Shown here in pieces: positions 7,483 through 55,870 of a stretch of DNA of 64,000 nucleotides. Numbering within the stretch: position 1 is the first letter of the stretch; each line of letters starts with the position of its first letter. The DNA is from Streptomyces sp. NBC_01445 (GTDB lineage Bacteria; Actinomycetota; Actinomycetes; Streptomycetales; Streptomycetaceae): NCBI RefSeq assembly GCF_035918235.1, contig NZ_CP109485.1, forward strand, positions 2,294,001 through 2,358,000, given 5' to 3'. The position numbers were made by a program, and so were the translations under genes. The notes under the pieces are model-generated. The model had not been told where the DNA came from. It made no database searches and was given only the letters and a program-made list of their open reading frames with translations.

Positions 7483-8731
7483 GTGCTCCCCGCACCCGCG
7501 GGGATGGTCCCGGCATTCCCGCGACCGGCCACGGCCCTCACGAGTGCTCCCCGCACCCGCGGGGATGGTCCCTTGTTCGGGTTCACGACGGAGTCCGCCG
7601 AGCTGTGCTCCCCGCACCCGCGGGGATGGTCCCGGCATGTACATGGCGGCGATCGGACACGTGAAGTGCTCCCCGCACCCGCGGGGATGGTCCCCGCACG
7701 GTCTTTAACGACGAGCCCATGGACTGGTGCTCCCCGCACCCGCGGGGATGGTCCCACGACCGTCGCCGAGGCGGCCGTCCTGTCCCTGTGCTCCCCGCAC
7801 CCGCGGGGATGGTCCCTGGTCGCTACTGGCGGGCTCCTTCTGGCCGGAGTGCTCCCCGCACCCGCGGGGATGGTCCCACCACCCCCAGCCCCCACAAGAC
7901 CGGTAGGGCGTGCTCCCCGCACCCGCGGGGATGGTCCCCGCGAGCTCGTCCGCCATAGCCGGCGTCAGGTGTGCTCCCCGCACCCGCGGGGATGGTCCCG
8001 AGGCGCTGGAGCGCCGGATGGGCGTCCGTGTGTGCTCCCCGCACCCGCGGGGATGGTCCCGCCTCACCCCCAAGACCCTCCGCACCGCCCTCGCGCTCCC
8101 CGCACCCGCGGGGATGGTCCCCGCGCACCGCCCTTGGGGGAGGTGACGCGGGGGTGCTCCCCGCACCCGCGGGGATGGTCCCGACAGCAGGCCGCGACGC
8201 ATCACCCTCGCCGAGTGCTCCCCGCACCCGCGGGGATGGTCCCGAGGGCCGCCTGAACCTGCGTGGCCTCGCGTCGTGCTCCCCGCACCCACGGGGACGG
8301 TCCCCCACGCGCAAGGAGTCGACTCCCAATGAACGTGTGCTCCCCGCACCCGCGGGGATGGTCCAACTGGCGCTGGACCGGCACTGTCAGCGCGAGCGTG
8401 CTCCCCGCACCCGCGGGGATGCTCCCTGGACGCAGGGGGATCCGCACAACCCCAACGTGTGCTCCCCGCACCCGCGGGGATGGTCCCTCCGCGTCCGCGT
8501 CCCGTACGACGGGCCGAACGTGCTCCCCGCACCCGCGGGGATGGTCCCGAGGGGCAGGGCGGCGACGTCCTCACCAACGAGTGCTCCCTGCACCCGCGGG
8601 GATGGTCCCGACGGACTGTGCCTGCGCGCGGGGGACTTCCTGTGCTCCCCGCGCCCGCGGGGATGGTCCCCCGCCTCGTCCCTCACACGGTCGACGGCGA
8701 GAGTGCTCCGCGCACCTGCGGGGATGGCCCT
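7483..8731 (+). CRISPR. CRISPR array 2, type I-E, 21 repeats / 20 spacers
   Basis: Repeats of 29 nt start every 61 bp from 7483 (7483, 7544, 7605 ... 8642, 8703); all spacers are 32 nt. The consensus differs from array 1 only near the 3' end (GGTCCC instead of GGCCCC). The first ten repeats are uniform. Variants gather in the trailing half: position 2 C at 8093, CACCCACGGGGACGG at 8276, a terminal A at 8337, ATGCTCCC at 8398, CTCCCTG at 8581, GCGCCCG at 8642, and a heavily changed last repeat at 8703. This is the expected old end of an array extended at the leader. Confidence 0.98.
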
Positions 8732-36745: not shown

Positions 36746-37265
36746 GACGGCACCCAGCGAAGAAGCCGCGAAAGAGCACCTGCAGGAGACGTTCGCCACG
36801 GAACCGGGCCAGAAGCAGCGTGCGCGCCAAAAAAGCAGTTATACAAGGACATTTCGCCTGGGTCTCACTGGCACTTCAGGGAATGCCGATCAGGCGTACA
36901 TGACGCGCAGGACAGTGACCTAGGGGTTGGCTCACGGCGGCTGCACGGTGGGGGCGGCTATTCCTCCGCGGTGACCCGGACGCTGCAGCAGCTGGTTGAT
37001 GCTCACGTCGCTCAAGGGAATCCTGGTCAGCTTGGCGAGGTCCCCCGCGAGCTGATCTCCGAGTGCCTTCGTGATACCGAGGGTGAAGCTTCGGGGGAAT
37101 ACCGACTCCTCCGGGCTCCCTGTTGTCGCCGCCATGGCCCTCGTCGCCCTCTTCGTGGTTCTACCGCTGTGGAGCGACATCGCGCGAGTTTCTCCGGCGC
37201 ATGGGTCACAAACGGCACTGCTCCGCGGTATGGTTCTGGCTGCACTGAAATGCTAGGAGTCGAAT
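36746..37265. other. intergenic region between the pilus block and the methyltransferase
   Basis: About 520 bp marking the change from the transfer/pilus block to the defence block. Apart from a weak minus-strand frame at 36932-37180, I see no gene. A GGAG site at 37256 belongs to the methyltransferase. Confidence 0.45.
36932..37180 (-). CDS. hypothetical small protein (weak)
   Basis: An 82-codon minus-strand frame with a plausible helical central part (FTLGITKALGDQLAGDLAKL, then TRIPLSDVSINQLLQ). No ribosome site is convincing, no family is recognised and it could be a shadow or remnant. Confidence 0.25.
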   Translation of the reverse strand: MSLHSGRTTKRATRAMAATTGSPEESVFPRSFTLGITKALGDQLAGDLAKLTRIPLSDVSINQLLQRPGHRGGIAAPTVQPP

Positions 37266-38615
37266 ATGCAACGGACGTCGGTAGAGCTCTTCGCGGGCGG
37301 GGGCGGGCTGGTCCAAGCCAGCACGAACACCGGCTTCCGACACCTGCTGCTGAACGAGTTCGCGACGAGGGCGTGCGAGACGCTTGAGGGCAATCGCTTC
37401 GACGTGTTTCCAGCGGACGTCGATTCCGATGTGTTGGCGAAGTGGCTGGACCAGATCGACAAGCAACAGGCAGACGGCTTCGAAGCTGCGGGCGCCGCTG
37501 AGCGGCCCCACTACCCTCCCCTGGTCGCCGGCGACGTCCGAGAGTTGGACATGCGCTTCCTCAGGGATCGCGATGTTGACCTTCTGGCCGGCGGGCCACC
37601 ATGCCAGCCGTTCAGCCTTGGTGGAGTCGCGAAGGGCGACGAGGACGAGCGGAACATGTTCCCGGAGATGTTCCGGGCGGTTCGTGAGATCCGCCCCAAG
37701 GCCGTCATCTGTGAGAACGTCCGAGGACTCCTTCGCCCGTCCTTCAATCCCTACTTCGAGTACATCAAGCGCGAGCTTTCCCTGCCGTTCGTGAAGCGCC
37801 GAGAGGGCGCCACGTGGCAGGAGCACGACCAAGCGTTGCGGGAGCGGCTCGACGCGAAGGACACCGATCCGGCGGAGACCTACGAGGTCACGCAACACGC
37901 CGTGAACGCCGCCAACTACGGGGTGCCGCAGATCCGCAACCGCGTGATCCTCTTGGCATTCCGCGCTGACCTGGGCGTGGACCCGGAGTTGGTCAAGCGC
38001 GCTGTCGCGCGCACCCACTCCCACGCGGCCCTCGCGCGGACGATCCTCGAAGGCTCCTACTGGAACCGCCACAAGCAGGCGGGCGCCAAGATTCCTAAGC
38101 GCGTCATCGATCTGGTGACCTCGCGCTACGCGAATGAGCAGCTGTCGTTCGAGAGCGGGGATGAGGAGCTCCAGCCTTGGCTCACCCTTCGAGACGCGGT
38201 AATGGGGCTCCCCAAGATCAACACCAGCGTGTTGGACAAGACGACGGAACAGGGCGGATTCCCCGACCACATCGGGTGGCCCGGAGCCAGGATCTACGAC
38301 GGGCACACGCCCAACGAACTTGACCGGCCGGCCAAGACCGTCAAGGCCGGGGTGCACGGTGTGCCCGGTGGCGAGTCAGTCATGCAGCTCGACAACCTGG
38401 TGCGCGACGAGAAGACCGGCCTGTTGCGCCCCGAGCACCGGTACATGACCGTTCGCGAGGCTGCCAGGGTCATGACATTCGGCGATGGATGGAGCATGGC
38501 GGGCCCGCGGGGTGAACGCATGCGGCAGCTGGGCAACGCGGTTCCCGTGAAGCTGGGCGAGGTGTTCACCAGCGCCGTCGCGAAAGCCCTCGCCGACGCG
38601 GAACGGCGCTCGTGA
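37266..38615 (+). CDS. DNA (cytosine-5-)methyltransferase
   Basis: A 449-residue C5 methyltransferase. Motif I is SVELFAGGGGLVQAS near residues 5-19; the catalytic Cys sits in GGPPCQPFSLGG near 112 (motif IV); ENVRG near 150 (motif VI); QIRNRVILLAFR near 222 (motif VIII). QLGNAVPVKLGEVFTSA near 425 is the motif X region. The target site lies in the variable region before it and cannot be read from sequence. Overlap of 4 bp with the Vsr-type gene gives a methylase-mismatch-repair pair, and the downstream ATPase and nuclease-helicase suggest a larger modification-restriction system. Confidence 0.92.
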   Translation: MQRTSVELFAGGGGLVQASTNTGFRHLLLNEFATRACETLEGNRFDVFPADVDSDVLAKWLDQIDKQQADGFEAAGAAERPHYPPLVAGDVRELDMRFLRDRDVDLLAGGPPCQPFSLGGVAKGDEDERNMFPEMFRAVREIRPKAVICENVRGLLRPSFNPYFEYIKRELSLPFVKRREGATWQEHDQALRERLDAKDTDPAETYEVTQHAVNAANYGVPQIRNRVILLAFRADLGVDPELVKRAVARTHSHAALARTILEGSYWNRHKQAGAKIPKRVIDLVTSRYANEQLSFESGDEELQPWLTLRDAVMGLPKINTSVLDKTTEQGGFPDHIGWPGARIYDGHTPNELDRPAKTVKAGVHGVPGGESVMQLDNLVRDEKTGLLRPEHRYMTVREAARVMTFGDGWSMAGPRGERMRQLGNAVPVKLGEVFTSAVAKALADAERRS

Positions 38616-39409
38616 ACGACGCCGCCGAGTCCCGGCAAGGGGGCTGGAAGGACAAGCCGCCGCCCGAGAGGGCATGGCGGGGACGGCAGGGGCGGACCAG
38701 GAAGGCGATCGTCGCCGAGCAGGATCGTGCCGCAGGTGGTCGCGAGGGCCGCTATGCCAAGCGTGAAGACGGCGACTACGCGCTGGCCTCGATCACGCTG
38801 AAGTTGTTGCCCAGGACTCGCCGGATCAGGGCCTATCTCCGCTGGTCGGAGAACGGGCGTTCGCCCGCCCTGTATGTCGGAGAAGTGGAGCATCTGACGC
38901 GTGCGGCGAATCTTGAACAGGCTTGGCAGATCGCCAAGGACCGGGGAATGGTCGGAGAACGCCCTCTCCCGGAAGGGTCGTGGGCGTCGTCTCCTGCCAC
39001 GCGGTCATCGATGCGCGGGAATCGAGGCCGCGACACGGCACCGGAACTCCGAATCCGCTCACTGCTGCATCGCGAGGGTCTGCGCTACCGCGTATCGGCG
39101 CGGCCGCTTCCCGGAGTGCGGCGAACCGCCGACCTCGTCTTCACCCGCGCTCGTGTCGCCGTCTTCGTGGACGGGTGCTTCTGGCACGGGTGCCCCGATC
39201 ACTGCCGTCCAGCACGCACGAACAGTGACTTCTGGCGCACCAAGATTGCCGGAAACCGAGCCAGGGACGCCCAGACCGACCAGTTCTTGGCGGAGGCGGG
39301 ATGGCGCGTCATCAGAATCTGGGAGCACGAAGATCCCGTACAAGCGGCGGGCCGGGTCGCCGCCGCCGTTCGCGACTTTGCGGCACGGGATGATCGCAAC
39401 GTTCCGTGA
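38612..39409 (+). CDS. vsr: Vsr-type very-short-patch-repair endonuclease with N-terminal extension
   Basis: A 265-residue protein. The C-terminal 140 residues match Vsr: RSSMRGNRGRDTAPELRIRS near 128 (catalytic Asp within RDTAPE), RRTADLVFTRARVAVFVDGC near 170, then FWHGCPDHC, a zinc/active-site segment. It repairs T:G mismatches arising from deaminated 5-methylcytosine, or serves as a nicking/restriction nuclease. Classic Vsr is about 150 residues. The extra 125-residue N-terminus (LRRTRR-like basic stretch, then YLRWSENGRSPALYVGEVEH) is a separate domain I do not recognise. GTG start, 4-bp overlap with the methyltransferase. Confidence 0.9.
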   Translation: MNDAAESRQGGWKDKPPPERAWRGRQGRTRKAIVAEQDRAAGGREGRYAKREDGDYALASITLKLLPRTRRIRAYLRWSENGRSPALYVGEVEHLTRAANLEQAWQIAKDRGMVGERPLPEGSWASSPATRSSMRGNRGRDTAPELRIRSLLHREGLRYRVSARPLPGVRRTADLVFTRARVAVFVDGCFWHGCPDHCRPARTNSDFWRTKIAGNRARDAQTDQFLAEAGWRVIRIWEHEDPVQAAGRVAAAVRDFAARDDRNVP

Positions 39410-39576
39410 TTCAGAAGGTCGTTGACGGCGTCGGAGGCCCGGCGCAGGACGATGCGCCCGTCGCCCTCGCTGAAAGCGAGCAGGTCGCCCCCAACGTTGA
39501 CGCCGACCTCGGCCAACAGCCCCGACGGTGGTTCGACGCGCTCATCGAGCTCTACGGGCACCCTCGGCGGGTTCAC
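39410..39576 (-). pseudogene. AbrB/SpoVT-like antitoxin or regulator remnant
   Basis: Convergent with the Vsr gene. The minus strand encodes, from a GTG at 39576, VPVELDERVEPPSGLLAEVG followed by DLLAFSEGDGRIVLRRASDA and VNDLLNHG. The GDGRIVLRRASDAV stretch is typical of AbrB/MazE-type swapped-hairpin proteins. Downstream the frame runs antisense into the Vsr gene with no early stop, so this is either a small gene overlapping Vsr or a decayed fragment. Confidence 0.4.
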
Positions 39577-39853
39577 GGATCACGGAAGGAGTCTCCCGAG
39601 GACCGCCGGCGTCTACCAGCAGCACTGCGGATCGTCAGGGGACGTTGCGGTTGCGACGGTTGGCGACCGGGTCTCGCAACCGCCGTAAACCACTCAACTG
39701 CATGGAACAGCAAGGAACTTAACGCCGATTGTCAGTGGTGCCCTCTACTCTCTTCATCACGCGTACGGCTCTACCCGAGCCGCGCGCCGAAGCCTGCCCG
39801 CGGTAGGGCTTTCTTCGGCGTGGCCGAGACGAGTACTGGGGGTCCGTCCACCT
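39577..39853. promoter_or_regulatory. upstream region of the GHKL ATPase operon
   Basis: About 280 bp with no supported gene, interrupting the co-directional defence genes. It presumably holds the promoter for the four-gene operon starting at 39854; TTGTCA at 39729 is a possible -35 but no matching -10 at normal spacing is clear. Confidence 0.35.
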
Positions 39854-42229
39854 ATGAAGATCACTCCTTCCGCGCGTGTGCTGCGCATGCTCGGTGAGAT
39901 CGAGTTCGACGAGTGGCAGTGCATCGCCGAGCTGATCGACAACGCCTTCGACGACTTCACGGAGATCCATCGGTCCGGGACCCCCTGGGCGGGCGGGTAT
40001 CGCGTCAGCGTCGAGCTCCCCGACTCCGCGCAGGGCCAGCTCGTGATCACCGACACCGGTCGCGGCATGACGTACGACCGGCTGGAGCGGGCTGTACGGG
40101 CCGGCTGGTCGGGCAACGACATGCACGACAAGCTCGGCCTCTTCGGTATGGGGTTCAACGTCTCGACGGCGCGGCTCGGCAAACGCACGCGCGTCCTGAC
40201 CACGCGCCAGGGCGACACCGAGTGGATCGGTGTGGAGATCGACCTCGACCGCATCGGAGACGACTTCGAGGCAGAGGACATCACGGAGCCGAAGGCCGAT
40301 CCCAACGAGCACGGCACGCGTATCGTCATCAGCCGCCTGCATCCGACGCGCGCTCGGTGGCTGCAGAAGAACGGCCCGGCCCTGCGCAACATCCTGGGAC
40401 AGGTCTACTCCTGGATGTTCCTGAACCGTCCGTTCGAGCTGTGGGTTGGCGGCTTCCAGGTGAAGCCTGTCCGGCACTGCCGTTGGGGAGACGGCCGCTC
40501 GGTTCTCTACAACAACAAGGAGCGCATCCCCGCCTACATCGAGATCGACCAGAAGCTGGAGAACGGTCTCGCCTGTGGTGACTGTGGACAGTGGCAGCTC
40601 ACTGATCGCGACGCCTGCGAGGACTGTGGGAGCGATCGGCTCACCGTTCGTGAGCGCCGGGTGCACGGGTGGCTCGGCATCCAGCGTTACATGCATAAGC
40701 ACGATTACGGAATCGACTTCCTGCGCAACGGCCGCAAGATCCTCCGCTGGGACAAGCAGCTGTTCACCTGGCGCAACCCTGACGGAGCGGTGGGAAACGA
40801 GGAGCCGGAGTATCCGGTGGACCTCGCCCACCAGGGCGGCCGCATCATCGGGGAGATCCACCTCGACCACGTCCCGGTCACGTACCAGAAGGACGCCTTC
40901 GAGTACGGCGACCGCAGCTGGCGCTCGGCGGTCGAGATCGTGAGGGGGGTCGCGCCGTTGCTGCCCCAGCGCGCGGCGAACCTTGAGTACGAGGAGAACA
41001 CCAGCCCGCTCGCGCTCCTCTTCAAGGGATACCGTCGTAACGACGCCGGTCTGCGGTACTTGGTCCCGGGAGACGGTCGTAAGCCGATCCACGACGACAC
41101 CCGTCGGTGGGGACATGAGTTCCACCGGGGCAACCCCGATTACCAGACCGATGAGCGCTGGTGGCAGGCGGTCGAGGACCACGAGGCGACCAAGAGCAGG
41201 GGCAAGAACGCGAAGGCGGCCACCGTCACCCCGGGAAAGCCCGACGAGGCGGCCGTGATGGAGGCGCTCGGTTTCGATGGCGCGGAAATCGGCAGTCCGA
41301 GTTCTCCCGCGACCGGTCGGGACGAGGCGAAACCCAGTGCCCAGGCGCAGCCCTCGAAGGACGGCGAGTCCGCTCCCGCCACGCCGGCCCCGGAGCAGCG
41401 TAGGGAGACGCGGCAGGAACGCGTCACGCGCTACACGGAGAACTCGACCACCTACCCGGCCCTGAGCCGCTCCTTCGGTCACCCGCGCGTCGGCTTCGTC
41501 GAGGTCGAGGCGCGTCGGCTCACGGCGGGAGGCCTGACCGACGAGAACCTCCACCCCACTCCCGTCCTGCTGGACCAGCGCGGCGGCAACGCCCTCGTGG
41601 CGTTCCTCGACCTCGATCATCCGATCTTCCAGAGGTTCGGAGCGGACCCGGCGGATCTGCTGCTCGCGGAGATCGCCGTGCTGCTGAGGGTGCAGACGAG
41701 TTCGGAGTGGAGCCACTCGGAGCTCATCGCGGCGATCCGGGCGGAGTCGCTGCCCGCCAGCGCTCTGGACGCCGAGATGATCAGTGCCGAGGCCAAGGAA
41801 CTGCTGGCTGAGGTCCGTCGCCGCATGGCGTCCGAGCTGGACCGCGCCGGTGAACCGGGGAAGGCGTTTCAGTTTCTCTCACCCGATGAACTCACCGCTA
41901 CCGAGCACACCATGATCGCCAACGGCAAGGTCACCCGCACGACCGACCTCGGTGCGAGCGGTGAGTTCCTGCTGCACGTGCCCGCCCTTTTCCTGGTTCG
42001 TCTCGTCGAGTCGCTGCCGTCTCTGTTCATGGACAACCGCGTCTTCCAGGGTGTCTACGAGGGTGTCGCCTCCGCGTCCGCGCGGCGGCTCAGTCTCGCG
42101 CGTACGGTCGGCTACCTCTCGGATGTCGCGACGCAGGCGACCTACGCCGGGGCCAGCCTTCCGGACCAGTTGCTGCGGACGAGGCTGAGCATTCGCCTGC
42201 TGGCCGACGACCTCGCGGAGGAGAAGTGA
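39854..42229 (+). CDS. GHKL-type ATPase (MutL/MORC-like) of a defence operon
   Basis: A 791-residue protein with an N-terminal GHKL ATPase: ELIDNAFDDFTEIHRSGTPW near residue 26 (N box), VITDTGRGMTYDRLERAVRA near 63 and DKLGLFGMGFNVSTA near 92 (glycine-rich lid), GTRIVISRLH near 155. A four-Cys zinc ribbon (CGDCGQ ... CEDCGSDR) lies near 239-263. After about residue 450 a low-complexity linker leads to an alpha-helical C-terminal domain. MutL/MORC-type ATPases next to C5 methylases, Vsr and SF2 helicases have been described as R-M-linked systems (Iyer, Abhiman and Aravind 2008). Its likely role is ATP-dependent DNA clamping. Confidence 0.85.
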   Translation: MKITPSARVLRMLGEIEFDEWQCIAELIDNAFDDFTEIHRSGTPWAGGYRVSVELPDSAQGQLVITDTGRGMTYDRLERAVRAGWSGNDMHDKLGLFGMGFNVSTARLGKRTRVLTTRQGDTEWIGVEIDLDRIGDDFEAEDITEPKADPNEHGTRIVISRLHPTRARWLQKNGPALRNILGQVYSWMFLNRPFELWVGGFQVKPVRHCRWGDGRSVLYNNKERIPAYIEIDQKLENGLACGDCGQWQLTDRDACEDCGSDRLTVRERRVHGWLGIQRYMHKHDYGIDFLRNGRKILRWDKQLFTWRNPDGAVGNEEPEYPVDLAHQGGRIIGEIHLDHVPVTYQKDAFEYGDRSWRSAVEIVRGVAPLLPQRAANLEYEENTSPLALLFKGYRRNDAGLRYLVPGDGRKPIHDDTRRWGHEFHRGNPDYQTDERWWQAVEDHEATKSRGKNAKAATVTPGKPDEAAVMEALGFDGAEIGSPSSPATGRDEAKPSAQAQPSKDGESAPATPAPEQRRETRQERVTRYTENSTTYPALSRSFGHPRVGFVEVEARRLTAGGLTDENLHPTPVLLDQRGGNALVAFLDLDHPIFQRFGADPADLLLAEIAVLLRVQTSSEWSHSELIAAIRAESLPASALDAEMISAEAKELLAEVRRRMASELDRAGEPGKAFQFLSPDELTATEHTMIANGKVTRTTDLGASGEFLLHVPALFLVRLVESLPSLFMDNRVFQGVYEGVASASARRLSLARTVGYLSDVATQATYAGASLPDQLLRTRLSIRLLADDLAEEK

Positions 42230-43896
42230 GCGCCGTCTTCCTCTCGGGGAACGAATTGCTGAGGGGAGGACCCGCAGGTCTCACGCATGCCGTCGAACGG
42301 GCCCTTTGGTACCTCGGCTTCAACGACGTGCGCGTTATCGACGGCGCCGGCGACCAGGGCGCGGATCTCTTGGCGGTACGCGGTCGAGAGCAGTGGGTCT
42401 TCCAGTGCAAGTGGAAGGCCGGAGGGAAGGTTGACCGTAGCGGTGTCGACGACCTTGAGCGCGCGCGTACGCGCTACCGCGCGGACAAGGCCATCCTGGT
42501 CACCAACACCGACATCAACGCGGCGGCTGAGGCCCGCCGCGTGGCGCTCAACGGAGTCGGCGTGCCGATCACCGTCTGGCACGGTGCCACCCTGCGGTCG
42601 ATCGGGGACCGCATGCCCGAGACCGTTCCCGCGAAGTACGCTCTGCGCCCGTACCAGGCAGAGGCGGCGGACGCCGTGGTCCGGGACCTCGACGCGAACC
42701 GCACCGCGCTGCTCGTCCTCGCGACGGGGCTCGGCAAGACCGTGGTGGGCGGAGAGATCATCAGCCGTCACCTCAAGTCCAATCCGGACGCCAGGATTCT
42801 CGTCGTCGCGCACATGAAGGACCTCGTCGCCCAGCTCGAGAAGGCGATGTGGCGGCACATCCCCAAGCACGTTCCCACGCGCCTGCTCACGGGAGAAAGC
42901 CGACCCGAAAGCCTCGACGGAGTCGTGGTCGGAACGGTCGAATCCGTTCTCAGTGCCGTACGTGTGGGCTACCGACCTGACCTCATCATGATCGACGAGA
43001 CGCATCACGTGGCCGAGACCGGCAGGTTTGCGGAATTGCTCGACCTGTGTGGGGATGCTGAGCAGTTCGGCGTGACGGCGACACCCTGGCGCGGTGACAA
43101 GTTCGACATCACCTCTCGCTTCGGATACCCGAGCTTCAAGATGGGCATCGCGGAGGGCATGGCCGCTGGCTTCCTCTCCGCCGTCGACTACCGGCTGTAC
43201 GTCGACAACGTCGACTGGAACGCCGTCCGGGACGCCAGCGTGCACGGGCAGTCGATCAAGGACCTCAACAAGTCCCTGTTCCTGCCGCAGCGCGACGAGG
43301 AGATCATCGAGCACTTCCGCGAAGCGTGGCGGACCACGACGGAACCGAGGGCCATCGTCTTCTGTCAGACCATCGAGCACGCCGAGCACATGGCCCGGTT
43401 GTTCGCCTCGTCCGACGCGGCGTGGGCCAACGCGTCGTTCCTGCACAGCGCACTCCCGCGGCAGCGACGCCAGATCCTGCTGAACGAGTTCCGGCTCGGC
43501 CGGGTGCCGGTGATCACGTGTGTCGACGTTTTCAACGAGGGCGTCGATGTCCCGGACGTGAACCTCATCGCGTTCCTGCGGGTCACACACAGTCGGCGGA
43601 TCTTCGTCCAGCAACTCGGCCGCGGACTCCGACTCAGCCCCGGCAAGGAGGCCCTGAGGGTCCTCGACTTCGTGACCGACATTCGCAGGGTGGCGGCGAC
43701 CTTGGAACTCCGGCGATCGCTGGAGGCCCAGGAGAGCGAGCACCTGCGCGTCCGAATGCCGCACGCCTCCCGTATCCAATTCAGCGATGAGACCGTCGGA
43801 TCGCTGATGGACCACTGGATCCAGGACGCGGCGGACCTGGAGACCAAGGCGGACGAGGTTCGCCTTCAGTTCCCTCTGACGACTGGAATCGAATGA
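42226..43896 (+). CDS. Mrr-type endonuclease fused to DEAD/DEAH-box helicase
   Basis: A 556-residue fusion. Residues 1-125 are an Mrr-like PD-(D/E)XK domain: RALWYLGFNDVRVIDGAGDQ, then GADLLAVRGREQWVFQCKWK with the acidic residue and QCK motif, and RADKAILVTNTDIN. The SF2 helicase follows: LRPYQAEAADAVV near 142, Walker A LATGLGKTVVGGE near 165, DETHHV near 256, VTATPWRGD near 283 and the arginine-finger motif QQLGRGLRLSPGKE near 463. It is a plausible DNA-cleaving translocase and effector of the operon. GTG start, 4-bp overlap with the ATPase gene. Confidence 0.92.
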   Translation: MSAVFLSGNELLRGGPAGLTHAVERALWYLGFNDVRVIDGAGDQGADLLAVRGREQWVFQCKWKAGGKVDRSGVDDLERARTRYRADKAILVTNTDINAAAEARRVALNGVGVPITVWHGATLRSIGDRMPETVPAKYALRPYQAEAADAVVRDLDANRTALLVLATGLGKTVVGGEIISRHLKSNPDARILVVAHMKDLVAQLEKAMWRHIPKHVPTRLLTGESRPESLDGVVVGTVESVLSAVRVGYRPDLIMIDETHHVAETGRFAELLDLCGDAEQFGVTATPWRGDKFDITSRFGYPSFKMGIAEGMAAGFLSAVDYRLYVDNVDWNAVRDASVHGQSIKDLNKSLFLPQRDEEIIEHFREAWRTTTEPRAIVFCQTIEHAEHMARLFASSDAAWANASFLHSALPRQRRQILLNEFRLGRVPVITCVDVFNEGVDVPDVNLIAFLRVTHSRRIFVQQLGRGLRLSPGKEALRVLDFVTDIRRVAATLELRRSLEAQESEHLRVRMPHASRIQFSDETVGSLMDHWIQDAADLETKADEVRLQFPLTTGIE

Positions 43897-44492
43897 CCAA
43901 GTACGCGATCCCCTCGGACCTGGAAGAAGAAGTCGTGCGTCTCCTCTACAAGCGGGCCGCCGACCTCAACTGGACCTATCTCACGGACACCGAGCGCACC
44001 CGTCACTATCAGGCGTGGACCACCGACCCCGAGGTGGGAGGACGGCTCCTCCCGTTCATCGGGAAGCCGGAGAATGTCCGGCCGTGGCTCAAGGACAGGC
44101 CCATGAAGGAGTACATCCGGGCGACTTACGGGGTGGGCAAGTGGGCTCCGCTCGTGGTCAAGCCGGCCACTCCGGTCAGCGCTCTCGTCGACAAGGCCCT
44201 CGGTCACGGCTGGAACGTCGACCTTGAGACGCTCGACATCAAGCCGCTCTGCGTGACGATTCGCCACGAGGACGACGAGGAGATGGAGCAGCGCTTCGCC
44301 TGGGCGCCCATGCGCGACTTCAAGCATCTCGCGTGGGCGGCCATCGCGTCGCAGGCCAGCGGCGACGCCCTGCCGTGGGTCATCTGCACGGTGGACTCGT
44401 TCGTTCGGAAGATCACCCCGGAGCAGAAGGCGACCAACGAGCGGATCGCGAAGCGGCTTGGTCTGATCAGTGCGCACGTCACCGATGGCTGA
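43893..44492 (+). CDS. conserved-looking unknown protein of the defence operon
   Basis: A 199-residue soluble protein: DLEEEVVRLLYKRAADLNWT at the N-terminus, then TYGVGKWAPLVVKPATPVSA near 86 and RFAWAPMRDFKHLAWAAIAS near 138. There is no recognised motif, signal peptide or membrane segment. Overlaps of 4 bp with the helicase and about 8 bp with the frame of the next gene place it firmly in the operon. Confidence 0.8.
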   Translation: MTKYAIPSDLEEEVVRLLYKRAADLNWTYLTDTERTRHYQAWTTDPEVGGRLLPFIGKPENVRPWLKDRPMKEYIRATYGVGKWAPLVVKPATPVSALVDKALGHGWNVDLETLDIKPLCVTIRHEDDEEMEQRFAWAPMRDFKHLAWAAIASQASGDALPWVICTVDSFVRKITPEQKATNERIAKRLGLISAHVTDG

Positions 44493-44505
44493 ACGGGGCT
44501 CCGCC

Positions 44506-45843
44506 ATGACGGGGGATGACGACTGGCTTCAGGCCGCTTTCGGTGCGCTTCCTGCCCGGTCACGTCGAATGATCGAGGATCGTGCCGACGGGAAGACCCA
44601 CGGAAGTATCGGGCAGGAGCATGAGGTGAGCCGCGAACGGGTCCGCCAGCTGCTCCTGAAGGCGCAGGAGCATCTCTGCGCCTTCGCCGACGCCTTCGTG
44701 GGTGACTGGCGTGATCGGCTCACCACCCTCACCGAGCGCTCGGCCGTGTCCCAGTCCGAGGTGGCGGCGGTGTTGGGCGTACGTGACCAGGTGGGCGTGG
44801 GGCCTCTTGTCGAAGCTGTCGGGGCTGAGCAGCCATTGACGTGGGCTGGTCGTCTGCGCGGCTGGTGGACCCGCAGCCCCGGCGCCCTGGAAGTGCTGCT
44901 TCGGCGAGGAGTGGATGAGGCGCCGCTGCGTGGGGAGGACGTAGCGGTGACCTTCGCGGCTGCCGGAGTACCGGACGAGGTCCCCTTGCTGGATCTGCTC
45001 GGACATCCCGATAGCCCTCTCGTGCCTGGCTTCGGGGGAACTTGGCTGCGCCGTCGCGCCCGCGGAAGGGACGCGGCCTACCTCTTCCTCCTGGCGAATG
45101 GCGAACCCTGCCGCGCGGAGGAGTTGCTGGCGCCGACAGGGATCAGGCGGAAGCCCGCCGTCGCTGAGGCGCTCAGGCGGGACGAGAGGTTCGTGCAGCT
45201 CCGCCTGGAGGGTAAGTGGGCGCTGGCCGAATGGTCTCACCTGAACGTCACTCCGTACCCGAACGCCACGGAGGCCTTCGTCGCTGTGCTGACCGAACTG
45301 GGGCCGCTGCCCAAGGACGCACTCTTCGTGAAGGTCGGCGAGCGCTACCCGGTGACCGTGTGGCGCCTGCACCAATGCCTGCTGGACGACAGGGTGGGCA
45401 TCACGGAGGATGGCTTGATCGAGCTGGTCGCGCGAGGTGCTACCCCGATCGAGGAAAGCGAGCCGGCACGGCCGGCGAGGATGGCCGTCGATCCTGCGGG
45501 AAACGTCTTTGGCGTCCGGCTCACGGTGGACAAAGACATCCTTCGGGGCAGCGGCGTCGTCGTCAGCAGCTGGCTCACATGGCAGCTCGGAATGCGACAG
45601 GCCCCTATGGTCAGGACCTTCTCCATCGCCGGTCACCCCACACCGATCGTCCTCAAGCGGGCGACGAGCGCGGCCCAGATCTCCAGCCTGCGGGTGTTGG
45701 TGAAGGAGAACGGAATGGTGGGCGGCTGCGAATTCGTCCTCTTCCTCCGCACGGACGACTCGACGGCGCGCATAGAGCACGCTTGTGCCCGGCACACCTG
45801 CCCTGCGATGAGCGAGCCTTCCGGGATCGAGGGTGGAGCTTGA
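44506..45843 (+). CDS. sigma-region-4-like HTH protein closing the defence operon
   Basis: A 445-residue protein. Residues 10-60 resemble sigma-70 region 4: LPARSRRMIEDRADGKTHGS followed by IGQEHEVSRERVRQLLLKAQ. The remaining 380 residues include segments that look like further HTH modules (AEELLAPTGIRRKPAVAEAL; PLPKDALFVKVGERYPVTVW) and a C-terminal domain (SSWLTWQLGMRQAPMVRTFS). No region 2 is present, so it is unlikely to be a normal sigma factor. Alternative starts are ATG 44485 (overlapping the previous stop) and GTG 44470. It could regulate the operon or recognise DNA for it. Confidence 0.8.
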   Translation: MTGDDDWLQAAFGALPARSRRMIEDRADGKTHGSIGQEHEVSRERVRQLLLKAQEHLCAFADAFVGDWRDRLTTLTERSAVSQSEVAAVLGVRDQVGVGPLVEAVGAEQPLTWAGRLRGWWTRSPGALEVLLRRGVDEAPLRGEDVAVTFAAAGVPDEVPLLDLLGHPDSPLVPGFGGTWLRRRARGRDAAYLFLLANGEPCRAEELLAPTGIRRKPAVAEALRRDERFVQLRLEGKWALAEWSHLNVTPYPNATEAFVAVLTELGPLPKDALFVKVGERYPVTVWRLHQCLLDDRVGITEDGLIELVARGATPIEESEPARPARMAVDPAGNVFGVRLTVDKDILRGSGVVVSSWLTWQLGMRQAPMVRTFSIAGHPTPIVLKRATSAAQISSLRVLVKENGMVGGCEFVLFLRTDDSTARIEHACARHTCPAMSEPSGIEGGA

Positions 45844-46304
45844 CGCTTTTCCAGCAGTGGGCCCACCAACCCGGAGCAGCAGTCGCTGTTCTACGGTCCG
45901 TGATTGAAGTACTCGTATCTAACGGCACGGTGACGCAGGCCAACATTGCACCTGACTACATCTCCATATGGGCGATCAAGAGCGACCAGAAGGCGCGGGG
46001 AAATCGCGGCTGCGTTCCATGCCGCCGTGCACGGGCTCCGGCAGCTATACATCGCCGTTCCAGTCCCGCGCACAAGGGCCTAGCCTGCGAGGCTCACGCC
46101 GAGGTGGCCGGTACGGTCGGTGGACCAGGGGGCTGCGGACCACTCACCTGCTCCAGCATCGCGCGCAGGGAGCGAGCGCGAGTGCTTGGAGAAATCCTAG
46201 AGATGCGTCAAGGCCCCCGATGCGCCCACGGAGACCGACACTCCCCAAAGCCCTGACCTGCAATTTCGTCCTGGAGTACACGTAGGCGATCTTCCAGGGC
46301 CTAA
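45844..46304. other. region between the defence operon and the tRNA-Pro scar
   Basis: About 460 bp with no gene I can support; frames here lack ribosome sites and protein-like sequence. It ends at the exact base where the tRNA-Pro(CGG) 3' half begins. Confidence 0.4.
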
Positions 46305-46346
46305 TTCGGGACGAAGAGGTCGTGGGTTCAAATCCCGCTACCCCGG
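46305..46346 (+). other. 3' half of tRNA-Pro(CGG): probable att site
   Basis: The sequence from the anticodon loop onward matches tRNA-Pro(CGG): loop TTCGGGA (anticodon CGG, 46305-46311), stem strand CGAAG, variable AGGTC, T-stem GTGGG, T-loop TTCAAAT, T-stem CCCGC, acceptor strand TACCCCG, discriminator G. Upstream the bases CCTAA cannot pair with CGAAG and no D-arm or 5' acceptor strand exists, so this is a fragment and not a gene. A break at the anticodon loop is the usual cross-over position of tRNA-targeting tyrosine integrases. Confidence 0.8.
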
Positions 46347-46358
46347 CAGCTGAAACAC

Positions 46359-46408
46359 CAGGTGAGGTGGGCGCTTACCGGATTCGGTAGACGCCTCACC
46401 TGTTTCTG
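46359..46408 (+). terminator. tRNA-type terminator hairpin
   Basis: CAGGTGAGG at 46359-46367 pairs with CCTCACCTG at 46394-46402, with inner pairing TACCG/CGGTA around GATT and a TTTCT tail. Its position just behind the tRNA-Pro fragment suggests that it is the original terminator of that tRNA, hence chromosomal flank. Confidence 0.7.
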
Positions 46409-47122
46409 TGTGCATGTCTATCTGCCTGGCTACTGCTCCGGGTTCTGCTTGAGGATGCCGTCTCCTGAACGGCCTCGATGGCGCCGGCCTCAGGTGCCGG
46501 AGCCATGACAGCAAGCGTCTGACACCGACGCGATAGAACTTTCTCTACCTCATCAAGACCCGCGCACGGCGCGGGTGCGTGCTACGTGCTGGGGGTGGAA
46601 GTGAGGAGTCGTCCGCGGCCTAGGGACATGTCTCCGGCGGGGGCGCTCGGGCTCCGGGATGGGAGTGGCGTCGTTCGCGAGTGCCGGCCGGTCCGTGGTG
46701 AGCGTTGTGGGCTCCCAATCCCGTCCGCCTTCGACCCAGGCAGAGCCGAGCGGTGCCATGACCAATCCTCACAGTCGTTCGTACAGTGGCGCGCTCCACC
46801 TTGACACCCTGAACCACGCCCGCTCCACGGTAAGTGGGTGACGGAGGCGCTAGTCACAGGTTCATAAAGCAACACATCCGCAGAACCCCAGTTTGGTCAC
46901 CCAGCTGACGAACACACGTACCGCCAGTGAGAGCTGCGACCCAGGCCACGCCGCTCCCTGCCGATCGGTGTCGGCGCGCTCTGGGGCGCCGTCCAGTGCG
47001 CCTTAGAAGTTCTCCGAGGGGGCTGTGACCTGCCTCACGATCTGGCATCCTAATCTCGCCGCCCCGTACAGCGCACCGAAAGACGCATCCTGACGACTCG
47101 CCATTATGGGAAGGACTATCAA
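46409..47122. other. non-coding stretch before the two-ATPase module
   Basis: About 710 bp without a supported gene. One perfect 8-bp hairpin, ACCCGCGC ACG GCGCGGGT at 46558-46576, could be a weak terminator but lacks a T-run. The last 100 bp become AT-richer and should hold the promoter of the 47123 gene. Confidence 0.4.
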
Positions 47123-48688
47123 TTGAACTCGGGAGATTTTACCAATAAGCAAAAGAGGGCGTTAGTGCCCACTAGGAACCAGATGAAGCTCGAAGAGAAG
47201 ATAGCAGAATTTGAACGCCGGCATGCCTTCGGTAGAAGTTTGACCTCCTATTTGAACCGCAATCTAATCAAAGTGGTTCGCGTCGAACAGGGATTGCAAG
47301 GGCGATGGAGCCTCTTCACCATCCTCCCCCCAGCCACCGCCGAGATGTTCGACATCGACCGGGAGCTTCTCTTCCTCGTCACGGACTACGAGGCCCTTGA
47401 GCCGCGAATTCTGAACGACCTCCAGTCGCAGATGCGGAACAATGCGCGGGTGGAGGACGAGATCGCCGTTCTGATTAGCAGGGACGGAAATGCCCAACGG
47501 CTGGTGAGAATGCGAGCAGGCGAGGCCGCCATCTTGACCATCGAAGGACAGCACCTTCCGGGTGAGGTACCCGACTTCAGAGTCATCGTCTCCGAGACGC
47601 TGGAGAGCGTCGACCACTTTAACGTCACCACCCCGATCACCTCTCCCAGTGCATTCTTTGGCCGACAGCGTGATATCTCCAATGTCAGGCGATTCCTCGC
47701 CCAAGGCCAGCACGTGGGAATCTTCGGGCTCCGGAAAGCAGGGAAGAGCAGCCTGCTGAATCGCGTCTCGTTCCTGGAACGGGAACGAGGCTCCATCGTG
47801 GTAAACCTGGACCTCAACGAATACTTCGGAACTCCACGGCGTTTTCGGGCCGGTATCGTGAGGTCGCTTTCGGAAGAACTGGTCAAGAGTAGGATTATCG
47901 TTCCGAAATTGCGCAGCTTGAGGTCCCACGGGCGGGATGACTTCATCAACGAATACTGGATGGGCGACCTGGACTTGCTCCTGAACGCAATCCAGGCCTC
48001 GCGCAATGTCATCTTCGTGATCGACGAGATCGACAGTGCGCTCCCGTCACGCATCCTCAGTAGGGCCGAGGCCGACGAAGAAGTCGGGCTCCTTCGGGCA
48101 CTTTCGCAACTTCGCGCTTTCATTCAGAAGCGCCAAAGTCGCGGCCAGATCCCTCCGGTAATCCTTTCCGCCGGGGTTGACCCCTCCCTCTTCGAGAGGG
48201 CTTCGGTACGAGGCATCACCAATCCGCTTTTCCAGTTCTCGGCGCTCAAGTTCATCGAACCTATGGACCGTGACGAGCTACAGGACATGGTTAGAACCCT
48301 CGGTAAGCGGACTGGTCTCAAATTCCGAAGCCATGAGGTGATCGACGAACTAATGGAGGAATACGGTGGCCACCCATTGCTAACCCGCCAGGCCTGCTCC
48401 TATGTGCACCGTCATCGCCCCGGAGGGGTGGTCCCTTACCACGTTCAGAAGAGTGACGTGCAGAATGCCTTCGCCGCCAAGGGGCCGGGCTCACCGCTGG
48501 AGCACGCTCGTGCGATCCCAGAAAGCTTTGCCGAGTGGTTCCCCCAAGAATCAACGCTCCTCAGCGAACGATGGTCGAACCGGCACTTCGAACCCATGGG
48601 AACGTCCGGGCTGGAACATGCCATTTCCTACGGACTACTTCACGATGACGGAAGTGTCCGAATGAGGGCACTAACGAGGGCGACATGA
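47123..48688 (+). CDS. P-loop AAA/STAND-type ATPase, two-gene module A
   Basis: A 521-residue protein. A 170-residue N-terminal domain (LTSYLNRNLIKVVRVEQGLQ ... EVPDFRVIVSETLESVDHFN) precedes FFGRQRDISNVRRFL, typical of the start of archaeal-type AAA/STAND ATPases. Walker A is FGLRKAGKSSLLNR near 205 and Walker B NVIFVIDEIDSALP near 294. The C-terminal part contains GGHPLLTRQACSYV, as in STAND winged-helix regions. TTG start with GGGAAGG upstream; ATG 47183 is possible. Base composition is visibly lower in GC than neighbours. Together with the next gene it looks like a defence or conflict module. Confidence 0.8.
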   Translation: MNSGDFTNKQKRALVPTRNQMKLEEKIAEFERRHAFGRSLTSYLNRNLIKVVRVEQGLQGRWSLFTILPPATAEMFDIDRELLFLVTDYEALEPRILNDLQSQMRNNARVEDEIAVLISRDGNAQRLVRMRAGEAAILTIEGQHLPGEVPDFRVIVSETLESVDHFNVTTPITSPSAFFGRQRDISNVRRFLAQGQHVGIFGLRKAGKSSLLNRVSFLERERGSIVVNLDLNEYFGTPRRFRAGIVRSLSEELVKSRIIVPKLRSLRSHGRDDFINEYWMGDLDLLLNAIQASRNVIFVIDEIDSALPSRILSRAEADEEVGLLRALSQLRAFIQKRQSRGQIPPVILSAGVDPSLFERASVRGITNPLFQFSALKFIEPMDRDELQDMVRTLGKRTGLKFRSHEVIDELMEEYGGHPLLTRQACSYVHRHRPGGVVPYHVQKSDVQNAFAAKGPGSPLEHARAIPESFAEWFPQESTLLSERWSNRHFEPMGTSGLEHAISYGLLHDDGSVRMRALTRAT

Positions 48689-54760: not shown

Positions 54761-55006
54761 GCGCACACATCTACCGGACCCATCCCTCGCCTGTACGGCA
54801 ATCACCCGACATCGCCTTACCAAGTTCAGTAGCGACGAGGCTCGCGACAAGCAGGTCCGTCGTCTCAGGACTGACCTGTCCGCGGTGCGCATGGTGGAAG
54901 GGCCGACTGCGGTGCCGGGTGGCGAACTGCCAGCAGTCCTCACCGCACGGAGGCCGTCACGACTTTCAACCCTCAGTCCAAGCACAGGGTCTCTAGGATC
55001 TTCGGC

Positions 55007-55870
55007 ATGTCGATCTCTTCTTCGGATGCGTCATCCGGCGACCGGTACGGCCGGTTCAACCCGCTGGGACTCGCCCAGATGAGCGAGAACCTGCGCAGCG
55101 CGTTGGAGGCCCAGCCCAGAGTGGCGCTGGCCGGCTTACAGCCGTTCACGGGAGCGGGCCTGTACGCGCTCTACTACCGGGGCAATCTGCCGATCTATCA
55201 GGATCTGAGCGAGACGCTGGTGCCGCTTTATGTGGGCAAGGCTGAGGCGGGAAATAGTAGTTACGGCGACTCGCCAAACGAGCGAAAACCCAAGCTGTAC
55301 AAGCGCATAGACAAGCATCGGGCCAGCATCAGTGAAGCGAACAATCTCTCGGTTGAAGATTTCGACGTACGCTACATACTCCTGGACGATGTATGGATCG
55401 TCTTGGGCGAAAGAGCACTGCTGCGCGCCTATAGTCCGGTCCTGTGAAACACACTGCTTACTGGTTTCGGTTCGAATCCCCCCGGTGAAGCACGCACGAA
55501 TCCCAGGTCCTTCTGGGACACCCTGCATCCTGGCCGGCCGCGTGCCGCTAACTACTTGTGCAACCGACTCCTGACCCGCAACGAAATCGAGCTTCGCGTT
55601 AACGAAGGCATCACCGTTTCGCTTATGGCCCCTGGCACTGATCGCGACCAAGCACTCGCGCAGCTGCGCGGACGCAGGTACCAGGCTATCTGGTCGCTCC
55701 CGACCAAGAAAGAAAAGGACAAGCGCCCTATAGTCTATCGACCAGATGCCTTCATTGAGGAAAACACCGCGTTCGACGTCTCGGCGGAATCCGAAACTTG
55801 GCGAGCCGCCCAAACGACCAGCGTCGTAACAGGGAGCGATATTGAAGATTTCGACGATGAAGACGACTAA
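55007..55870 (+). pseudogene. Eco29kI-family GIY-YIG restriction endonuclease interrupted by an in-frame TGA
   Basis: A single frame of 287 sense/stop codons encodes a GIY-YIG endonuclease: FTGAGLYALYYRGNLPIYQD near residue 44, LYVGKAEAGNSSYGD near 76, KHRASISEANNLSVEDFDVR near 104, and LDDVWIVLGERALLRAYSPV near 126. A TGA at 55445-55447 then stops it, but the same frame continues with NTLLTGFGSNPPGEA, FWDTLHPGRPRAANYL and about 100 more residues to a TAA at 55868. Eco29kI-family enzymes read PVWN followed by a W-D-x-LHPGRPW stretch here, so the TGA probably replaces a Trp codon (TGG). No matching methyltransferase is adjacent. A truncated 146-residue product would lack the C-terminal half. 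Confidence 0.85.

Follow-up and report, generated by a model that had tools for sequence, protein, structure and literature searches.

We propose that a block of genes in Streptomyces sp. NBC_01445 is an ATP-dependent restriction-modification (R-M) system of the MORC/paraMORC class that acts in defense, and we think that this reading is probably correct. The block lies in a 64,000-nt stretch of DNA (NZ_CP109485.1, 2,294,001-2,358,000), which we call the window; coordinates are window positions. At 37266-45843, six + strand genes stand side by side. They encode a methyltransferase (MT), a Vsr endonuclease, a GHKL ATPase, a helicase fused to an Mrr nuclease domain (the Mrr-helicase), a protein that we call U199, and a protein resembling region 4 of sigma-70 (the sigma-4 protein). 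The features of the locus, including open reading frames (ORFs) with lengths in amino acids (aa), are:

36932..37252, - strand: truncated GIY-YIG endonuclease remnant ("GIY1", distantly Eco29kI-like), divergent from the MT gene; hmmsearch 65 bits
37266..38615, + strand: C5-cytosine DNA methyltransferase (MT), 449 aa; PF00145 9.3e-45
38612..39409, + strand: Vsr mismatch endonuclease, 265 aa; Pfam Vsr 1.1e-18, TIGR00632 2.6e-36
39406-39897: ORF with no Pfam match, between the Vsr and ATPase genes
39854..42229, + strand: MORC-like GHKL ATPase, 791 aa; HATPase_c_3 4.8e-10
42226..43896, + strand: Mrr nuclease domain fused to a RadD/XPB(Rad25)-like SF2 helicase, 556 aa; Mrr_cat 2.9e-16, ResIII 2e-23, Helicase_C 9.8e-18
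43893..44492, + strand: U199, 199 aa, conserved; no Pfam family
44470..45843, + strand: sigma-70 region-4-like protein, 457 aa, accessory; Sigma70_r4 PF04545 9.4e-7
36974..45826, no strand: block kept in six other genomes, the unit that moved; blastn, 92-95% DNA identity

The genes form two tight rows. The end of the MT gene and the start of the Vsr gene overlap by 4 bases. The ATPase gene, 444 bases past the Vsr gene, opens the second row, in which it overlaps the helicase gene by 4 bases, the helicase gene overlaps the U199 gene by 4, and the U199 gene overlaps the sigma-4 gene by 23. An earlier note on this DNA (the original prediction) had given these gene positions and identities, and they were borne out: the ORFs are as it described, all on the + strand, and the Pfam families agree. 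The four genes that it called tightly overlapping are so, and the 199-residue protein that it called unknown has no Pfam match. It did not include the ORF at 39406-39897 or the truncated GIY-YIG gene directly upstream of MT (36932-37252, - strand), and its gene set was incomplete in that a GIY-YIG endonuclease belongs to 34 of the 80 related loci described next and is broken in the window.

To sample related loci, we aligned 22 ATPases and searched the contigs of GTDB representatives with this alignment; of the 246 relatives that it gave, we kept the best 80. MT, Vsr, the ATPase, the Mrr-helicase, and U199 occur together in 71 of the 80 loci, which exceeds chance (singly, MT is found in 77, the helicase in 78, and Vsr and U199 in 74 each). 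The ATPase, helicase, and U199 genes follow each other in this order on one strand in 74 loci. In L060, L062, and L066, the genes for the ATPase, helicase, U199, Vsr, and MT form one overlapping row with no GIY-YIG gene. Among the nine incomplete loci, six are cut by contig ends (L022, L034, L051, L053, L070, and L088) and three are not (L047, L056, and L068). Most hosts are actinobacteria, and some of the contigs come from proteobacteria, Chloroflexi, and spirochaetes. The sigma-4 gene is present in 34 of the 80 loci (one match is weak), and a PDB search with the sigma-4 protein found nothing. The idea of a single six-gene set therefore holds in part: five of the genes travel together and are mobile, but they fall into two modules and the sixth gene is often missing.

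U199 is tied to the helicase when it is used to draw the sample as well. Of 391 genomes in the order sample, 24 (including this one) have it, with the Mrr-helicase directly upstream in all 24, although this sample shares some species with the ATPase-drawn one. In the class sample it was found in 4 of 197 genomes, with the helicase alongside in three, and in the phylum sample in 2 of 396 genomes, one of them a weak match with no other part detected there. A search of 100 genomes (including this one) with the ATPase matched six, two of them weakly.

The closest solved relatives of the ATPase by sequence profile are MORC3 (6.8e-8) and MORC4. The protein has a GHKL domain (residues ~1-200), a zinc ribbon (241-258), an S5-like region (~270-360, motif only), and a C-terminal region (~520-790). 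Residues E26, D29, N30, D67, G69, G71, G95, G98, and G100, which we take to be those of the ATP-binding motifs, are present in 72 of 72 rows. So are the zinc ribbon cysteines (241, 244, 255, and 258); the ribbon has weak profile matches to ribosomal L40e (E = 0.013-0.047). The top matches to a structure model were SMCHD1 and many Hsp90s, with no MORC chains among the best 50 matches listed, and the confidence of the S5 region of this model is below 50 over residues 269-374. Compared by eye, residues 286-296 (GIDFLRNGRKI) depart from the MORC S5 motif (GhXhhpXXRhl) only at position 10, where K (found in 71 of 72 rows) stands in for a hydrophobic residue, so we call the protein MORC-like rather than MORC. 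The helicase matches the profiles of RadD (4.1e-29), the "putative helicase" 7clg (3.9e-22), and XPBII (~1e-19), and its residues D47, Q60, K62, K171, D257, E258, R466, and R469 are present in 72 of 72 rows.

Operons of this type were predicted by Iyer, Abhiman and Aravind in 2008 (PMC2292703). In the part of that paper available to us, the MORC/paraMORC R-M operons are mobile and sporadic and combine a GHKL ATPase, an SF2 Rad25-like helicase fused to a nuclease of the restriction-endonuclease (RE) fold, a cytosine MT, and Vsr; S. avermitilis is among the species in the figures. The same part proposes that the ATPases link the recognition site to cleavage, and that prokaryotic MORC-like ATPases were the source of the eukaryotic MORC chromatin proteins. 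The window has the corresponding parts: a GHKL ATPase with intact ATP-binding motifs, a Rad25-like SF2 helicase fused to an RE-fold nuclease (Mrr_cat plus ResIII/Helicase_C, with RadD and XPB matches), and a cytosine methylase with Vsr nearby (both in 74 of the 80 loci). The related Mza system has been called validated, and Mza-type systems also have a GHKL/MutL-type ATPase, a helicase-type large protein, a PD-(D/E)xK nuclease, a sigma-factor gene (mzaA), and a cytosine MT (PMC9523054). Because the outline was predicted in 2008, this gene class is not undescribed, and we drop the original suggestion that the block is a candidate for an undescribed defense system. The available main text of Iyer 2008, where it treats this operon type, mentions no U199-like gene, fixed Eco29kI-type domain, GIY-YIG arm, or two-module evolution. 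Among the papers listed by our literature searches there was no experimental study of a prokaryotic MORC R-M operon, and searches for the gene set itself were fruitless.

The conserved fifth protein, U199, is new here. It is modeled with a helical N-terminal half and an alpha/beta C-terminal domain (residues 92-199; AlphaFold2 pLDDT 95.6, from a 69-row alignment). It had no match in Pfam, PADLOC, or NCBIfam, and a PDB profile search found nothing. The U199 domain is also fused behind a PIN_8 nuclease domain in proteins that adjoin the system (L024:5488-7218, - strand; L073:14603-16219; L078:14590-16224), and at one locus U199 lies alongside a Mza-like module. Given these contexts, U199 may be a site reader or an adaptor that different systems share.

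The block is a mobile unit. Six other genomes (L012, L013, L014, L015, L019, and L025) carry positions 36974-45826 with an identity of 92-95% at the DNA level (blastn, matches >120 bp). The flanks, about 6-7 kb on each side, are unmatched, save for a ~140-bp piece (46300-46448, ~80-84%) in two of the six. The five proteins from MT to U199 all have relatives on a Rhodococcus plasmid that is typed as conjugative (pLW4, L095). When the whole block was compared with plasmid DNA, and the ATPase with phage proteins, nothing matched.

The five genes belong to two evolutionary modules, ATPase-helicase-U199 (the core) and MT-Vsr, which have been re-paired about four times; this is new here. The trees have 72 rows (the 71 five-gene loci plus the window, leaving out the nine incomplete loci and L007-L011), and tree distances were correlated across the 55 of these that are non-redundant. 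The correlations (rho) are high within the core (ATPase-helicase 0.949, ATPase-U199 0.89, and helicase-U199 0.912) and between MT and Vsr (0.807), and are 0.10-0.18 between the modules. If Vsr is split into two types by score against the window Vsr (53 and 19 rows), then its type switches four times on the core tree, which is the number forced by the starred branches; this is a quick tree in which long branches may be misplaced (L048, L067, L081, and others). Of the 74 loci with both MT and Vsr, 71 have the two on the same strand; the pair lies up- or downstream of the core and on either strand.

Despite this re-pairing, a fixed kind of MT recognition domain has been kept, which is also new here. 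C113, E150, N151, and V152 of MT are invariant in 72 of 72 aligned rows, and 25 positions of the recognition region are identical in at least 71 of 72. The motif KAGxHG[V/L/T/I]xGGE is found in MT of all 77 loci with an MT; this form was widened after the strict form failed in two loci (75 of 77). Scored with the widened form, 0 of 30 control loci, which hold other C5-MTs in related genomes, had it (these are the best-scoring matches in 61 genomes, not every match). The MT of Salmonella plasmid pC, which adjoins an annotated Eco29kI-family endonuclease, shares 24 of the 25 recognition-region invariants and 46 of 50 catalytic invariants with the window family; one different C5-MT, as a control, shares 4 and 33. 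The same 24 of 25 are found in the MT of a 3.9-kb plasmid from E. coli, whose gene table lists no endonuclease, and of a Paraburkholderia plasmid (gene row vsr-MT-Eco29kI endonuclease). Thus, the window encodes a C5-MT with an Eco29kI-type recognition domain. R.Eco29kI acts at CCGCGG, according to the available part of PMC1952068. As the recognition domain is common to Eco29kI-linked MTs, we predict that MT methylates CCGCGG-type sites.

In E. coli, the C5-MT Dcm has a neighboring Vsr, which performs very-short-patch repair, and repair of deaminated 5-methylcytosine (5mC) is the role of the Vsr family. The pairing here is alike, but the MT is of a different type and the ATPase and helicase are added alongside. 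Vsr most likely repairs deaminated 5mC here too, rather than restricting DNA. It carries an N-terminal extension of ~115 aa, which is conserved among the 55 rows with Vsr above 240 aa.

The locus differs from Eco29kI-type Type II R-M systems in its added ATP-dependent core and Vsr and in lacking an intact GIY-YIG endonuclease. In the window, similarity to this endonuclease spans profile positions 6-72 of 299 (the first ~70 codons), stops before the catalytic GIY motif, and ends at 36974, where the mobile block has its edge too. Among the near copies, L012, L013, and L025 have fragments only, and L014, L015, and L019 have full-length genes; divergent full-length genes are found in these three and in L017 and L018. 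By Pfam, the L014 protein matches RE_Eco29kI (1.7e-6, just under its cut-off) and GIY-YIG (9.4e-5), and a relative in L026 matches an Eco29kI-like family (1.1e-7). Counting an open frame that scores above 200 bits as intact, 34 of the 80 loci have a GIY-YIG gene, which belongs to either of two Eco29kI-like families; in 33 of them it is no more than 2 kb from MT. The other 46 have no full gene, although short contigs may hide some, and MT is still beside the core in 43 of them. The endonuclease thus erodes while MT, Vsr, and the core persist. A second Eco29kI-like endonuclease gene lies at 54875-55870 (+ strand; PF09517 5.4e-28 on its first part) and is interrupted by an in-frame stop codon; the scanned ORFs around it include no MT.

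The system would probably work as follows. MT would place 5mC in CCGCGG-type sites, which would mark host DNA, and Vsr would repair the T:G mismatches that arise when these methyl-cytosines are deaminated. The MORC-like ATPase, the Mrr-helicase, and U199 would form a restriction complex, in which U199, possibly with MT, would read the site or tether the complex to it. The ATPase would close on DNA as an ATP-driven clamp, the helicase would translocate, and the Mrr domain would cut unmethylated foreign DNA. The sigma-4 protein may be an optional DNA-binding regulator. In many relatives, the GIY-YIG endonuclease would be a second, simpler restriction arm that relies on the same mark; in this genome the copy of that arm next to MT is broken, and the ATP-dependent arm is intact. 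This keeps the scheme of the original prediction (methylation marks self, the GHKL protein couples, and the Mrr-helicase cuts) as the best-supported mechanism, while the site, the complex, the polarity, and the role in defense are what we infer.

Several observations weigh against this proposal. Mrr domains are often found in modification-dependent enzymes, so we can only infer that unmethylated rather than methylated DNA is cut. The window holds 97 CCGCGG sites vs. 89.5 +/- 9.5 expected, so there is no clear avoidance; outside repeat arrays there are 67 sites vs. 79.7 expected, a value that falls among those of other GC palindromes. No known motif or confident fold match was seen for U199. 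In L068, the core genes lie among transposases and MT was not detected; Vsr and U199 were not detected in L047, nor was Vsr in L056. Within 20 kb of the ATPase relative G059 (locus L009; 42% identical across residues 5-451), the other genes were not detected. Also, the low cross-module correlations were equaled by just 0-21 of 500 shuffles and are thus mostly above them, which means that the two modules keep some dependence on each other.

We considered three other explanations. An ordinary Type II R-M cassette (MT, Vsr, and GIY-YIG), reduced to an orphan MT and Vsr by the break in its endonuclease gene, could lie by chance beside an independent MORC-helicase defense module. This would fit the low congruence between the modules, the placement of the MT-Vsr pair on either side and strand, and the 34 loci with a GIY-YIG gene above 200 bits, nearly always within 2 kb of MT (33 loci); Eco29kI-type R-M systems are also annotated on plasmids that lack the core. 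However, the five genes co-occur in 71 of 80 loci, sometimes as overlapping rows, with one recognition motif (77 of 77 MTs vs. 0 of 30 controls), and MT stays beside the core in 43 of the 46 loci with no intact GIY-YIG gene (even if short contigs hide some), so we consider a chance pairing unlikely.

Alternatively, the block could be a repair machine for 5mC deamination, in which Vsr nicks T:G mismatches and, in bacteria without MutL, the roles of MutL and UvrD fall to the MORC-like ATPase and the RadD-like helicase. MutL was not found in this genome; still, we think that this role is quite improbable. We have similarly strong doubts about a guard or abortive system, in which methylated host sites restrain the core and self-DNA is attacked when the mark is lost or is diluted by a phage or competing plasmid (post-segregational killing or altruistic death). 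The retention of MT alongside the core in loci that show no intact GIY-YIG endonuclease, the mobility of the block, and its copy on a plasmid would all suit such a system, and Mza-like kin with AIPR abortive-infection genes have been reported (PMC9523054). But the six proteins matched no AIPR or toxin family (Pfam, PADLOC, and NCBIfam), and a guard needs no translocating helicase.

We also note some features of the neighborhood. Directly upstream of the block, 13863-36745 encodes AAA_10 ATPase, NlpC/P60, T2SSE, two T2SSF, TadE-like, and LysM proteins and resembles a conjugation- or Tad-type element (larger ORFs scanned). Just downstream, an AAA/nSTAND1-like ATPase lies in a low-GC stretch (47123-48688). 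At 2416-2937 and 7483-8670 there are ~61-bp spaced repeats (unit GTGCTCCCCGCACCCGCGGGGAT...) that resemble CRISPR arrays. In several actinobacteria, an unknown protein of ~600 aa and a helicase-like protein of ~1000 aa recur as neighbors of the system (L075:14726-20698, also L072, L077, and L079-L081), with a sigma-70-like protein as well in L075.

If the block is an ATP-dependent R-M system, then it is a compact and mobile one, with its catalytic residues in place and a concrete prediction: 5mC at CCGCGG and restriction of unmethylated CCGCGG DNA. With a named subunit (U199) and a predicted site, the 2008 proposal that the ATPase couples the recognition site to cleavage, as given in the available part of PMC2292703, would become directly testable.

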